From positions 1 through 13,549 of the forward strand of contig JAAZPN010000076.1 in NCBI GenBank assembly GCA_012797215.1: a DNA stretch of 13,549 nt, given 5' to 3'. The stretch comes from Chloroflexota bacterium (lineage in GTDB: Bacteria > Chloroflexota > Anaerolineae > Anaerolineales > Anaerolineaceae). Positions 1-4,804 of this stretch are shown one piece after another. A program made the position numbers and the translations under genes. Below the pieces are notes generated by a model. The model ran no database searches. It had not been told where the DNA came from and saw only the letters and a list, made by a program, of their open reading frames with translations. Every line of letters begins with the position of its first letter. Within the stretch, counting starts at the first letter, position 1.

Positions 1-410
1 ACTTCCCCAACTACGCCGCGATTATTCCGCCCTCATTCAAAACCCGCACTGTGTTGACCACCGCTGACCTGTTGAAAGCCTGCCGGCAGACTGAAATCAT
101 CGCGCGCGAAGGCAATTTCATTGCCCGGCTGGATATCCAGCCTGAGAGCGGCGCGGAAAAGGCTTCCCAACTCGAAATTTCGGCCATTTCTGAGCAGACC
201 GGCTCATCTGAAGTCATCGTGGATGCTTCCGTGGACGGCACTCCGCTCTTGATTTCCTTCAATGTGCGCTATCTGCGCGAAGTGTTGGAGGTCATCAAGA
301 CTGCCAATGTCATTCTGGAGACCAACGCGGCCAATCCCCCCGCCATGATTCGACCGGTAGGGGACGACACCTTCAAACACATCATCATGCCGATGAACAT
401 CCAGCGCTAA
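1..410 (+). CDS. dnaN: DNA polymerase III beta subunit (sliding clamp), C-terminal part
   Basis: Cut by the left window edge; the reading frame starts at base 3 and 135 residues are visible, roughly the last third (third clamp domain) of a protein that is usually 360-380 residues. The clamp is a ring-shaped dimer that tethers the replicative polymerase to DNA. Seen: the opening FPNYAAIIP matches the conserved clamp segment (FPDY..vIP type), followed by a TADLLKACRQTEIIARE helix, a SGAEKASQ strand region, the FNVRYLREVL segment and the family's typical C-terminus IMPMNIQR, close to the usual MPMR ending. An intrinsic terminator follows directly, so the gene is the end of its transcription unit. 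dnaN normally sits next to dnaA and oriC, which implies the origin lies to the left of this window. Identification is firm. Confidence 0.95.
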   Translation, partial: FPNYAAIIPPSFKTRTVLTTADLLKACRQTEIIAREGNFIARLDIQPESGAEKASQLEISAISEQTGSSEVIVDASVDGTPLLISFNVRYLREVLEVIKTANVILETNAANPPAMIRPVGDDTFKHIIMPMNIQR

Positions 411-691: not shown

Positions 692-3046
692 ATGACCTTA
701 CCGCAAAGCGGCAGCGACCGCTACTACAGCATCTATCTGGCGCTCTCCCAATATCCGGTTCTGTCCGGGCGCATACGCGAGCTGATGCGGCAGGAGCTTT
801 ACCAGAAAGGGCTGACCACCCCATCCGCGCTGAACGCGGAAGCCGTGCAGAACGCGGTTCAATCCCAGGAACGCGAAGGCATTCGCGACCCACTCTCCGA
901 AGAAGATTCCGAAACCTGGGAATACCGCAAAGCGGAAATGCTTAACCAGCTCACGGACACATATTTCGCCAAGTTTATTGGTTTCGAACAGCTTACCAAG
1001 CTAATCCAACAGGCTTTGAACGAACGCGGCGTTCACGTGCCGGAGATCACGATTGAATTCAACCCGGAGACCGCCCCGACGGAAATGCTTTTCAACCAGG
1101 GCATGATGATTGAAAAAATGCCCGAAGAGAAGCGCGCGCCATACGAAGCGCGTCTGCACGAGATCAAAGTTGTCCTGATCCGCAGCATGATCAGCGACCA
1201 ATTGCGCTACATCAATATCGCCAAAGACTGGTTTACAGTCTCCGACCTGGCCGAAATTCGTCAGCACAAGCTCGGTAGAGGTCGAATCGGGGGTAAAGCG
1301 GCGGGTATGCTGCTCGCGGCTCGGATACTCAAGGAAAAATCCAGCGAAAGCTTGCGCGAAAGTCTGCAAACCCCTACATCGTTCTACATTGGCTCCGACG
1401 TCTTCTACAATTTCCTATCCATCAATAATCTGCATCACTGGAACGACCAGAAATATAAAGACGAAGAGCAAATGCGCAGCGATTACCCGCTTATCGTCGA
1501 AGATTTCATTCGCGGCGACTTTCCGCCTTCCGCCGTCCAACATCAGGAAACGATTCTGAGCATGGCCGGCAAACGCCCGCTGATTGTGCGCTCTTCCAGC
1601 CTGCTGGAAGACAATTTTGGCACCGCTTTCGCGGGGAAGTATGAAAGCATCTTCCTGCCTAACCAAGGAGACCCTGAGGAGAATCTACACGCGCTGCAGC
1701 AGGCTATCGCCCACATCTATGCCTCCACGCTCAACCCGCCGGCGCTGCTTTATCGAAAAAGCCGAGGTTTACTGGATTACGATGAACGCATGGCGCTGCT
1801 TATTCAGGTTGTGGAAGGGCAGCGGCAGGGGGATTACTACTTCCCACAGCTCGCCGGCGTAGCATACAGCCAAAATCAATTCCGCTGGTCTCCTCAAATT
1901 CGCACAGAACAGGGCTTTGTGCGCCTGGTCTGGGGTTTGGGCACCCGCGCAGTGGACCGGGTTGGAAACGATTACCCGCGCCTGGTCGCTCTCAGTCACC
2001 CTTCGTTGATGCCCTCATCGTCCACGCAATCGATTCGCCGCTATTCTCAGCAGTTTATTGACCTGCTTGACCTTAAGCAGAATAAATTTACGACAATATC
2101 GGTCCGGGATGTGCTTAATCAAAGAATTCCACAGCTGCGTTACCTGGCTCAATTGGACAGCGACGGGTATTTTCAGACGCTGCGCAGCAACTTAATTGAG
2201 GGAAAGCCCGAGAATCTTGTCCTGACCTTCGACGAACTGCTGCGCCGGACGGATTTCGCGCCCTTGATGCGCGAACTGCTATCCACGCTGGAAACAGAGT
2301 ACCACACGCCAGTAGACATTGAATTTACAGCGCGCGTGTCTGAAAGCAATGGAAAAGCATCCGTGCAAATCACTCTGATACAGTGCCGTCCGCTCGGGAC
2401 AATCAAAGAAGGCAGCTACGAGCTCCCGCAACGCGTGACCGAGTCTGATAAGGTCTTCACCGGGATCAGCGTGGTGGCGGGCGGGATGATTGAAGACATC
2501 CGCTATGTTCTCTATGTCAATCCTTCGGCCTACTTCGCGCTGGCCACGCAGGATGAGCGCAACCAACTGGAACGCGCCATCGGGAAAATCAACGCCGCGC
2601 TGCACAACGAGAACTATATTTGCGTGGGGCCAGGCCGCTGGGGAACCTCCAACCCGGACCTGGGCGTGCACGTGGATTACTCTGATATCTACAACACCCG
2701 GGCTATCGTAGAGCTTACCGGCGGCAAAGCCGGCATCCCGGATGAACCCTCACTCGGCACTCACTTCTTCCAGGACCTGCTGGAAGGCCAAATTTACCCG
2801 CTGGCCGTCAACCTGAACCGCGACACGTTTAACACGCAGTTTTTTGAAGCGACGCCCAATCACGTTCTGGAATGGCTGCCCGGCGCGGAAGCCCTCAAGA
2901 ACTGCCTGAGGGTCATCCGCGTTGCCGATTACAGCCCGGACAGCCGCTTTGACATCGTTATCGACGATTTTACAGGCCATACCCTGGCGTTTTTGAGCGG
3001 GGAAAAAGAAAAAGGCGGCGAGAAAAGACAGATTTACGTTCCATAA
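692..3046 (+). CDS. PEP/pyruvate-binding (PPDK N-domain) protein lacking phosphotransfer domains
   Basis: 784 residues. The N-terminal ~190 residues are helical and charged, with no recognised domain. From about 195 comes an ATP-grasp-like nucleotide-binding module of the pyruvate phosphate dikinase/PEP synthase type: glycine-rich GGKAAG (200-205), RPLIVRSSSLLED (295-307) with FAGKYES (313-319), AGVAYSQN (388-395), VDIEF (541-545) and IQCRP (563-567), which match ATP- and metal-binding positions of that family. The C-terminal ~200 residues carry GPGRWGTSNPDLG (646-658) and GTHFFQDL (689-696), a conserved tail of stand-alone PEP/pyruvate-binding proteins. The phosphohistidine motif (GG.T.HAA) and the PEP-binding barrel are absent, so it should not be a complete PPDK or PpsA; reaction and substrate are unknown. 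ATG 692 is preceded by GAGG at 682-685. It is transcribed alone, away from dnaN's terminator, and its stop abuts a parS site. Confidence 0.85.
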   Translation: MTLPQSGSDRYYSIYLALSQYPVLSGRIRELMRQELYQKGLTTPSALNAEAVQNAVQSQEREGIRDPLSEEDSETWEYRKAEMLNQLTDTYFAKFIGFEQLTKLIQQALNERGVHVPEITIEFNPETAPTEMLFNQGMMIEKMPEEKRAPYEARLHEIKVVLIRSMISDQLRYINIAKDWFTVSDLAEIRQHKLGRGRIGGKAAGMLLAARILKEKSSESLRESLQTPTSFYIGSDVFYNFLSINNLHHWNDQKYKDEEQMRSDYPLIVEDFIRGDFPPSAVQHQETILSMAGKRPLIVRSSSLLEDNFGTAFAGKYESIFLPNQGDPEENLHALQQAIAHIYASTLNPPALLYRKSRGLLDYDERMALLIQVVEGQRQGDYYFPQLAGVAYSQNQFRWSPQIRTEQGFVRLVWGLGTRAVDRVGNDYPRLVALSHPSLMPSSSTQSIRRYSQQFIDLLDLKQNKFTTISVRDVLNQRIPQLRYLAQLDSDGYFQTLRSNLIEGKPENLVLTFDELLRRTDFAPLMRELLSTLETEYHTPVDIEFTARVSESNGKASVQITLIQCRPLGTIKEGSYELPQRVTESDKVFTGISVVAGGMIEDIRYVLYVNPSAYFALATQDERNQLERAIGKINAALHNENYICVGPGRWGTSNPDLGVHVDYSDIYNTRAIVELTGGKAGIPDEPSLGTHFFQDLLEGQIYPLAVNLNRDTFNTQFFEATPNHVLEWLPGAEALKNCLRVIRVADYSPDSRFDIVIDDFTGHTLAFLSGEKEKGGEKRQIYVP

Positions 3047-3062
3047 AGTTTCACGTGAAACA
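3047..3062. other. parS: parS-like ParB-binding site, copy 1
   Basis: AGTTTCACGTGAAACA matches the classical bacterial chromosomal parS 16-mer TGTTTCACGTGAAACA at 15 of 16 positions (only the first base differs). It begins immediately after the TAA of the preceding gene. ParB-family proteins load on such sites to organise and segregate the origin region. The CACGTG core and both GTTT/AAAC flanks are intact, so binding is plausible. parB and parA are not in this window. Confidence 0.82.
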
Positions 3063-3079
3063 ATAATTCACGCCGGCGA

Positions 3080-3095
3080 TGTTTCACGTGAAACA
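3080..3095. other. parS: parS ParB-binding site, copy 2 (exact consensus)
   Basis: TGTTTCACGTGAAACA is an exact, fully palindromic copy of the classical parS sequence. Its centre lies 33 bp from that of copy 1, about three helical turns, so both face the same side of the DNA. Together with nearby dnaN this supports an origin-proximal segregation locus. Confidence 0.9.
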
Positions 3096-3407
3096 TTATT
3101 GTTTTCGGGAGGATTTTTCCCCAGCTTGTATAAGAAGATGTGGGTAATGGGAGCGTTTCTCAACGCGCGGGGATATTCTTCAAAAATATTCCAATTCAAG
3201 TGTAGCTTTTGTTTATCGTGGTGGGTTTTTTGGGGGTAGGATTGGGAGGCATGTGCACAGCCGCGAAACAGAGCTGTTAGCGCAGCGATTTTTTATCTAA
3301 TCACCGCGCGGCCTGCCTGTTGGCGCCGGCTCGCGATAAGATCAGCTATGAAAATCCCTTGACCCATTCCGGGTTTAGGTATAAAATCTCTCCCCTCAAG
3401 GCAATTT
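3096..3407. other. Non-coding stretch between the parS pair and the tRNA
   Basis: No credible gene is seen. The stretch holds the right arm of an AT-rich inverted repeat around parS copy 2 (AAACAATAAT 3058-3067 with ATTATTGTTT 3095-3104), a single DnaA-box-like nonamer (TTACCCACA on the minus strand, 3139-3147, one mismatch to TTATCCACA), a small hairpin GCGTT-TCTC-AACGC (3153-3166), a G/T-rich segment with several G-runs (3219-3249), the palindrome TGTGCACA (3252-3259), and the tRNA promoter at its right end. One DnaA-like box is too little to call an origin. Confidence 0.5.
3359..3387 (+). promoter_or_regulatory. Sigma-70-type promoter of the tRNA-Arg gene
   Basis: TTGACC (3359-3364) and TAAAAT (3382-3387) are separated by 17 bp; each matches the consensus at five of six positions. 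The predicted start near 3394 is about 14 bases before the mature tRNA, leaving a short 5' leader. Confidence 0.75.
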
Positions 3408-3480
3408 GCCCTCGTAGCTTAATGGATAGAGCACCTGCTTGCGGAGCAGTAGGTTGCGCGTTCGAATCGCGCCGAGGGCA
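3408..3480 (+). tRNA. tRNA-Arg (anticodon GCG)
   Basis: 73 bases fold into a full cloverleaf. Acceptor GCCCTCG (3408-3414) pairs with CGAGGGC (3473-3479), discriminator A at 3480; D stem GCTT/GAGC; anticodon loop TTGCGGA gives GCG, reading CGC and CGU arginine codons; T stem GCGCG/CGCGC encloses TTCGAAT. Arginine identity features are present (A20 in the D loop, C35, A73). The outermost anticodon-stem pair (27-43) is a C-T mismatch. CCA is not encoded. Most bacteria use ACG (read as inosine) for these codons, so the G34 version is unusual. The T-rich bases 3481-3490 may help termination. Confidence 0.95.
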
Positions 3481-3529
3481 TTTCTGTTTTAAGCGCATCT
3501 GACGCGCCTTTTAACCCATCGCGCGGTGG

Positions 3530-3547
3530 TAGAATCCAACCAAGGAG
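3530..3547 (+). promoter_or_regulatory. Promoter -10 and ribosome binding site of the lipoprotein gene
   Basis: TAGAAT (3530-3535) is a likely -10 element and AAGGAG (3542-3547) is a strong Shine-Dalgarno 6 bases before ATG 3554. If the -10 is used, the leader is only about 12 bases. No convincing -35 hexamer is visible. Confidence 0.5.
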
Positions 3548-3553
3548 CGCGCG

Positions 3554-4804
3554 ATGAAAAATATCCCGTTTTCTCTTCTTATTCTCCTGATGCCGGCTCT
3601 CCTCCTGAATGCTTGCACGCCAGCGGCGCCCACAGAAAATCCTGCCGCTGCAGCGCCTTCTGCTTACCCTGCCGGGGCGGAGGCGCACCAGGCCGCTACT
3701 GTGTACCCGGCAGCGCCCGTGCTGGCAACACCGCCTGCGCCGTTAACGCCTGAAGTGCCGCCATCAGCCGCGGCGGCTGGCATTCCACTCTATTCCCTTC
3801 GCATTTTCGCGAACGGACAGGGCTGGGCATCCAATTGGAATCAAACAGCGCTTTACCACAGCGCGGACGGCGGTCTTTCGTGGGCGGATGTGAGCCCGGC
3901 AGCCGCGTTGGCCGGCGCGAGCGGCGGTTTTTACAGCTTTTATCTTGACGGGAGCACCGCCTGGCTCAGCGTCCCCACTTTTGAAAGCTCAATGCTATTG
4001 CACAGCCCCAACGCGGGCGCGACCTGGTCTACCACTGTGCTTGATTTTCCCGCGGGCGATCCGCAGTTTTTGGACGGCCAAAACGGCTTTTTACTCAGCC
4101 GCCTGGGAGCAGGGGCTGGCTCGGAATACATCGCCCTGTATCAGACCGCTGACAGCGGCGCTACCTGGGAACTGCGCTTCAGCCACGAAGCCGGAGGCGC
4201 AGATCCATCCCTTCCTGCAGGCGGTCAAAAGACCGGCTTTGTGTTTCCGGTCCTTAATAAAGGATGGGTTAGCGGAAGTGTGCCGATTAATGACTTCGTA
4301 TTTTTATACCGGAGTACTAATAGCGGTGAGTTTTGGTTTCTGGTAGATGTTTCTATGCCGGATGGTGATATTGGCGCGATGTTCGAAAGTTTTCCGCCAG
4401 CATTCTTCAGCTCTACGGAGGCCATCCTGCCGCTGCGTGTATATTTGCCGACCGGAAGTCCGCAGACCTGGTTCTACCAATCCGTTGATGGCGGTGAGAC
4501 CTGGACCTTCCTGAGCGGAGCTCTGCCTTCCGCTAACCATTTTGTTTTCGCGGACGCGCAGCACTGGTGGCTGCTGGGAGAGTTTGGGCTCTTCCGCACG
4601 CGCGACGGCGGCGCAAGCTGGGAAGACCACTCCGACGGGCTCCCCGAGGGCTTTACCCCACTCACCATGGATTTCCCGGACGCGGACAACGGCTGGATGC
4701 TTGCATCTCCGGAAGGAGACACCAGCATGGAGAGCAATTATCTCTTTCACAGCGCTGACGGCGGCCTGCATTGGGAGCTGCTGCCGGCGTTTGTCGCGGA
4801 TTGA
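3554..4804 (+). CDS. Asp-box (BNR/YCF48-like) repeat lipoprotein
   Basis: 416 residues. The signal peptide has a short basic start, a hydrophobic stretch (residues 7-18) and a lipobox LNAC with the lipidated cysteine at 21, so the protein should be anchored outside the cytoplasmic membrane. Residues 22-75 form a Pro/Ala-rich linker. The rest is a predicted beta-propeller with seven Asp-box-like motifs of the form S.D.G.(S/T)W at 103-110, 151-158, 198-205, 254-261, 310-317, 349-356 and 400-407, spaced about 40-56 residues. Such repeats occur in sialidase-like, YCF48/HCF136 and sortilin-type propellers. No catalytic sialidase residues can be identified, so a binding or scaffold role is more likely than hydrolysis. 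The ATG 3554 start is fixed by AAGGAG just upstream. No terminator is visible before the next gene. Confidence 0.82.
   Translation: MKNIPFSLLILLMPALLLNACTPAAPTENPAAAAPSAYPAGAEAHQAATVYPAAPVLATPPAPLTPEVPPSAAAAGIPLYSLRIFANGQGWASNWNQTALYHSADGGLSWADVSPAAALAGASGGFYSFYLDGSTAWLSVPTFESSMLLHSPNAGATWSTTVLDFPAGDPQFLDGQNGFLLSRLGAGAGSEYIALYQTADSGATWELRFSHEAGGADPSLPAGGQKTGFVFPVLNKGWVSGSVPINDFVFLYRSTNSGEFWFLVDVSMPDGDIGAMFESFPPAFFSSTEAILPLRVYLPTGSPQTWFYQSVDGGETWTFLSGALPSANHFVFADAQHWWLLGEFGLFRTRDGGASWEDHSDGLPEGFTPLTMDFPDADNGWMLASPEGDTSMESNYLFHSADGGLHWELLPAFVAD

Follow-up and report, generated by a model that had tools for sequence, protein, structure and literature searches.

ParB-CTPase clamps load at parS sites near oriC. 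Chromosomal parS sites of ParABS systems of the Spo0J/Soj type were reportedly described by Livny in 2007. This work on chromosomal parS is cited in passages of PMC7022226 and PMC7333895, and the relevant part of the former, a review, describes it as a conserved feature that par operons are found in the origin domain. In the ParABS system of Hyphomonas neptunium, as presented in one part of the corresponding report (PMC6650430), two parS sites with the global consensus are both placed upstream of the parAB operon. In a gel shift experiment given there, ParB bound exactly the same 16-mer as that found in this study. A passage of Jalal 2020 (PMC7383237) describes two residues that contact parS, which are absolutely conserved in ParB proteins and changed in the related protein Noc.

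The locus analyzed here lies in a DNA stretch of 13,549 nucleotides (hereafter referred to as the window) and consists of two neighboring palindromes. It resembles the chromosomal parS of ParABS systems in its 16-mer consensus, in the presence of more than one copy, in its nearness to oriC (as judged from relatives) and in the association with a ParA-ParB operon (found in the nearest relative genome, designated G001). It differs from them in the position of parB: in contrast to the origin-domain location given in the passage of PMC7022226, this gene is 24–46% of the circumference away from parS in the six closed genomes of the same class that were measured. Two parS sites with the global consensus are shared with H. 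neptunium, whereas the placement of both sites upstream of parAB, stated in the part of PMC6650430 referred to above, is not found in the window's relatives. Noc and its binding site (NBS) are similar in the ParB-like fold and in the length of the site (16 bp), but the site found here has the parS sequence, and at the positions of Q and R in Noc the G001 protein has R and G.

Two probable parS palindromes downstream of the PPDK_N gene

The window contains, in this order, the end of dnaN, a PPDK_N gene, both palindromes, a 0.3-kb non-coding stretch and tRNA-Arg, the last being the sole match in an Rfam search of the window (Table 1). The initial sequence-only reading had reported an exact parS at 3080–3095, a 15/16 match at 3047–3062 and the position of the latter directly after the upstream stop codon. 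This observation is correct, since both palindromes stand at these places and site 1 begins at the base following the TAA (3044–3046) of the 784-aa gene. The start-to-start distance of the sites is 33 bp. Only 0.01 parS matches are expected by chance in the window (200 shuffles, largest number 1), and no third parS-like site within 3 mismatches was found elsewhere in it. It is almost certain that the two palindromes serve as ParB-loading sites (parS) on a chromosome of the Anaerolineaceae-like (Chloroflexota) type. The sites themselves are ordinary; what is unusual is the chromosome layout seen in relatives.

Table 1. Coordinates of the features identified in the window and of the origin-like module of relatives
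Feature	Position	Strand	Remarks
dnaN 3′ end (DNA polymerase III beta, C-terminal domain; last 135 codons)	3..410	+	PF02768, E 5e-21
784-aa PPDK_N gene (PEP-synthase-like ATP-binding domain)	692..3046	+	PF01326; stop codon abuts parS site 1
parS site 1	3047..3062	.	AGTTTCACGTGAAACA, 15/16 of consensus; 14-bp core GTTTCACGTGAAAC intact
Spacer between both 16-mers	3063..3079	.	17 bp; length kept, sequence not conserved
parS site 2	3080..3095	.	TGTTTCACGTGAAACA, 16/16
Origin-like module (relatives)	L055:21603-21913, L057:21054-21363, L059:18524-18831, L060:18732-19039, L131:2392-2718

The gene upstream of the palindromes, originally regarded as an orphan, turned out to encode a PPDK_N (PF01326) protein with a match in 71 of the 101 examined relatives. 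In many of them it is located directly beside dnaN (e.g. G001, G015, G025, G039, G050, G059). Elsewhere the parS pair is hundreds of bases away from the PPDK_N gene. In genome G022 (C54:7666-9549) only a remnant of this gene, interrupted by numerous stops, is left, and behind it an exact parS pair (133 bp apart) persists. The PPDK_N gene is context for parS and is not required by it, and the stop codon abutting parS is a local feature of the window's lineage. The DNA behind parS is not conserved: compared with the window (3098-3355), the more distant relative L061 (12408-16080) carries approximately 3.4 kb of extra DNA between parS and the tRNA-Arg stretch.

Conservation, copy number and spacing of parS in relatives

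For the window's chromosome, the ParB protein, oriC and the genome-wide number of sites are deduced from relatives. The nearest of these, G001, has 25% of sampled 31-letter words in common with the window and encodes a PPDK_N protein 100% identical to that of the window, while contig L053 shares 99.1% identity with 4,623 bp of the window. G001 carries the same parS pair in the same place. No further site with up to 2 mismatches to the 16-mer was found in this genome (1.7 Mb scanned, 85% complete), and the 4 hits with 3 mismatches are no more than in the reversed control.

Comparison of the window with L053, L054 and L061 revealed 0, 1 and 0 changes, respectively, in the 28 positions of the two 14-bp cores, and 0, 10 and 13 changes in the 19 positions of the stretch between them. 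The single core change in L054 is located in site 1, whose core is kept in L053 and L061; the core of site 2 is unchanged in all three sequences, and so is the 33-bp register. Since the cores are nearly unchanged and the spacer has diverged, this pattern bears the footprint of purifying selection on the palindromes.

The exact 14-mer is present in 81 of the 101 relatives (reversed control: 0/101). Within the family (61 genomes), exact copies number two in 40 genomes, one in 9, three in 3 and none in 9; two further genomes of the order (G070 and G095) contain five each. When genus genomes with one exact site (G003, G006, G011, G015, G023) were rescanned at 1 mismatch, a second site was found 33–561 bp off in each case (5/5). 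At this level, no parS pair was seen in G013, G014 and G017. The remaining 20 of the 101 relatives are without the exact core, though most of them have ParB. In five loci of this kind the 2 kb behind the PPDK_N gene were inspected: in G055 a single one-mismatch variant occurs twice, at a distance of 78 bp, and in G053, G035, G030 and G052 no site with up to 2 mismatches was detected in this region.

The nearest-neighbor spacing, determined for 48 loci that have two or more sites on the same contig (the window and 47 genomes), ranges from 33 to 1385 bp (median 76.5) and amounts to 33–60 bp in 21 of them. The exact copies in relatives are few and clustered; the random scatter named beforehand as an argument against parS was not seen.

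The sequence-only reading had also taken the 33 bp to represent about three helical turns. The distance is right, and the helical-turn reading does not describe a conserved property. In a phase test limited to spacings of up to 130 bp (n = 32; the orthologues of the window's pair in G001, G015 and G025 removed, the remaining rows being related), R was 0.40 with a nominal p of 0.006; other counts gave p 0.017 (n = 35) and p 0.012 (n = 30). Three-turn phasing was rejected, because the mean phase (4.1 bp) differs from that of the 33-bp pair (1.5 bp), the rows are related, and the 13 rows from outside the genus gave p 0.45. None of the 48 pairs is closer than 33 bp, which is perhaps a steric limit. 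Apart from this apparent lower limit of 33 bp, the spacing of parS is free.

The predicted ParB protein

A ParB homologue (TIGR00180) was matched in 96 of the 101 relatives (95 above the cut-off), including G001, and the lack of a parB homologue, which had been put forward as a possible objection, does not apply to these relatives. G001 contains a parA-parB operon, located on a contig other than the one carrying parS. Its ParB starts with MARKTGLGKGLDALIP, carries the sequence GERRWRAA (in which GERR is the CTP motif) and matches the Spo0J structure 1vz0, a Thermus protein, with E 3.4e-53. In alignments with Noc (7ol9), the arginine of its KSR motif and the glycine of its GHAR motif stand opposite Q and R; instead of the Noc residues Q173 and R201 (Caulobacter numbering), the G001 ParB has R and G at these columns and therefore has the residues of a parS reader. 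With these residues and the CTP motif, the protein is predicted to be the cognate ParB.

Additional ParB-like proteins were also noticed. One that is only weakly similar to ParB (about 382 aa, below the family cut-off) recurs in the genus as a second such protein (e.g. G018:C74:15714-16181, G006:C22:82990-83451). In G057, contig C24 encodes a second ParB (119.6 bits) 16.7 kb from parS, and the main ParB is encoded on another contig.

Probable location of the replication origin

There is no origin in the window: it has no DnaA-box cluster, only two scattered one-mismatch boxes, and the DnaA-box/DnaA-trio module described below is absent. In relatives, an origin-like module was identified (Table 1). 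Its first part combines DnaA-trio-like TAG repeats with a G-rich step and a pair of DnaA boxes; a triple DnaA box, with spacings of 20 and 21 bp, follows 258–277 bp further on. This layout fits the published basal unwinding system, as outlined in a passage of PMC8287927. The full module is present in the 5 sequences from which it was drawn and in none of 197 others (window included). Its left half (3 mismatches) was found in 26 of 71 genomes, with one match each (control: 0), and gave no match in the other 45, including G045, G072 and G196. The six module loci that were fetched contain 5 to 11 DnaA-box-like sequences (up to 1 mismatch) per 801 bp versus 0.17 expected, an excess that arises partly by construction because the search pattern itself contains box-like letters.

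The distance between the module and parS is 3.9 to 72.6 kb (median 13.0 kb) in all 13 genomes of the order with both on the same contig, a count that favors short distances because 8 other module genomes have them on different contigs. Among the remaining module genomes, the place of parS is not listed for G037, G047 and G061, G035 has no exact parS, and in G226 (same class, other family) the module is 243 kb from parS. The order in the close relative G025 is dnaN, PPDK_N, parS and then, 26 kb on, the module. If this synteny extends to the window's chromosome, its oriC would be expected to the right of the window, probably a few tens of kb from parS.

The parS-dnaN distance does not exceed 74 kb in 22 of 23 same-contig relatives (the exception being G045); these counts, too, favor short distances, since 21 further relatives have both on different contigs. 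In G031 and G048 the module is on the parS contig and dnaN on another one.

GC skew was sampled in six relatives, with twenty 20-kb stretches taken from each. In the single-contig genome G045 (2.95 Mb), the cumulative skew minimum within a contiguous stretch of 165 kb is at position 292,309, and the parS pair (296,307 and 296,354) is located 4 kb from it; a third exact site is at 275,869, and dnaN is approximately 490 kb from the pair. In G058 the skew changes sign near 655 kb; the module (677 kb) and parS (690 kb) follow, and one sample further on, at 820 kb, has reverted to negative. The skew of G072, G196 and G274 is compatible with parS near the origin at a resolution of 100–300 kb; owing to the sparse sampling, the minima of these genomes are known only to about that accuracy. 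G225 shows the reverse of what would be expected: its single exact parS is at the plus-to-minus skew change and parB near the minus-to-plus change (G225:C1:347340 and 2806897). This may possibly reflect inverted skew or a displaced centromere. Since the module of G226 is 243 kb from parS, inverted skew is possible in the genus of these two genomes.

In relatives belonging to the order, parS was found close to the origin, with G226 and G225 as exceptions at the class level. The proposal that the pair forms an origin-proximal segregation center without adjacent parAB is therefore supported by relatives in which the skew minimum, dnaN or the DnaA-box module is nearby. The sequence-only reading had suggested dnaA and dnaN as origin markers, which holds for dnaN and fails for dnaA. 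In the four genomes with dnaA and dnaN on the same contig (G045, G058, G072, G082), these genes are 124 kb to 1.8 Mb apart, and dnaA is therefore a poor origin marker in these genomes. Its distance from parS is 89 kb in G045, 102 kb in G082, 163 kb in G129, 0.94 Mb in G196 and more in G058, G072 and G185.

Separation of parAB from parS

In all six single-contig genomes of the class with exact parS (G045, G072, G196, G225, G226, G274), parB is located 23.6–45.5% of the circumference from parS. Measured from the skew minimum or the module, parB is 46% away in G045, 39% in G226, 39–44% in G274, about 22% in G072 and 16–21% in G196. By this measure, it is outside the origin domain (±10%) in five of the six closed class genomes; in G225, with the skew read normally, parB is near the origin and parS near the terminus. 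The sampled skew of G045 switches from plus to minus somewhere between 1.615 and 1.740 Mb, an unsampled interval that includes parB (1,636,741); this gene thus sits at the skew maximum, the presumed terminus.

Large distances between parS and parB were also found on large contigs of G058 (2.57 Mb, and at least 1.57 Mb the other way round), G133 (2.44 Mb) and G185 (3.14 Mb). Both positions are listed for another 41 family genomes, and in every one of them parS and the main parB occupy different contigs, a result that excludes only close linkage. If parB were placed uniformly, all six closed genomes would have it more than 10% away with a probability of 0.26; the data thus show that parB is not tied to the neighborhood of parS; they do not show that it avoids this neighborhood.

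The exact parS core also occurs in Chloroflexota genomes from outside the class. In six of these genomes (G286, G287, G289, G320, G398, G399) parS is about 0.9–5.2 kb from parB, as opposed to about 1 Mb or more in the closed class genomes, and in G308, G326 and G331 the distance is at least 250 kb; no exact parS was found in G316 and G396. Three few-contig genomes of the class (G224, G246, G268), with parB present and no exact parS, were left out of the count. The few-contig genomes were hand-picked from 351, and those left out include G374, G375, G386, G407, G411 and the f53 genomes. In G196 and G185, dnaA and parB are only 29 kb and 18 kb apart, respectively, and both are far from parS.

On balance, we lean towards the view that in Anaerolineales oriC, a two-site centromere and often dnaN have stayed together, with parAB far off and dnaA removed by about 0.1 to 1.8 Mb, i.e. 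that the cassette has been taken apart. A literature search (open-licence papers, titles and abstract starts, partial lists) found no report of a layout with parS and parB apart in Chloroflexota, which may nevertheless be in print.

Discussion

Site 1 abuts the stop codon of the PPDK_N gene, and RNA of the region 3040–3110 folds at −22.7 kcal/mol (z −3.66), as might be expected if the pair were a transcription terminator or an RNA hairpin at the end of this gene. However, such a fold follows from any two palindromes: read-through RNA folds because each palindrome is complementary to itself as well as to the other one. No terminator-like site (a G+C-rich stem followed by a T run) occurs at the pair, the sole one in the region 2800–3600 being located at 3273–3286, versus 1.5 expected. 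Furthermore, terminators conserve structure and not an exact 14-mer, whereas the same 14 letters are found up to 1385 bp apart in relatives, lie 17 kb from the PPDK_N gene in G058 and persist as a pair in G022, where this gene has decayed. A role as a terminator or hairpin is consequently very unlikely.

It is even less probable that the sites are operators of another palindrome-binding regulator, e.g. a Noc-like protein or a local repressor. A perfect palindrome can indeed be an operator, and several genus genomes carry the second weak ParB-like protein (about 382 aa) scoring below the cut-off, but the palindromes have the parS consensus sequence, the occurrence of two sites per genome close to oriC is not an operator pattern, and the ParB of G001 carries ParB and not Noc residues. 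Practically negligible is the chance that the pair itself is a DnaA-binding part of the replication origin. Its proximity to dnaN and, in relatives, to the DnaA-box module would agree with this, but the pair contains no DnaA box, the window has just the two scattered one-mismatch boxes, and the DnaA-box/DnaA-trio module of relatives is a separate place 4–73 kb off.

Both palindromes are, with very high probability, the parS sites that make up the bacterial centromere on an Anaerolineaceae-like chromosome. Each 14–16 bp palindrome would be recognized via the helix-turn-helix of a ParB dimer, which would close with CTP into a clamp and slide off, thereby freeing parS for the next dimer. The loaded clamps would make up the partition complex moved by ParA, and they probably load SMC, so that the origin region would separate first. 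A second parS near the first may raise loading or give redundancy. ParB binding, CTP clamp loading, SMC loading and segregation at this particular pair are assumed by analogy with the described systems.

In a group of uncultured Chloroflexota, the pair may indicate the centromere and, together with the DnaA-box/DnaA-trio module, serve as a marker for origins in fragmented genomes, where dnaA would mislead. If the proposed layout is true, ParB would be supplied from a late-replicated gene and its loading sites would be copied early; each initiation would then lower the ParB-to-parS ratio, which would return to its former level at termination. The layout would then test whether parAB must sit in the origin domain, and the lineage looks like a natural exception for studying the distance between ParB supply and its sites.
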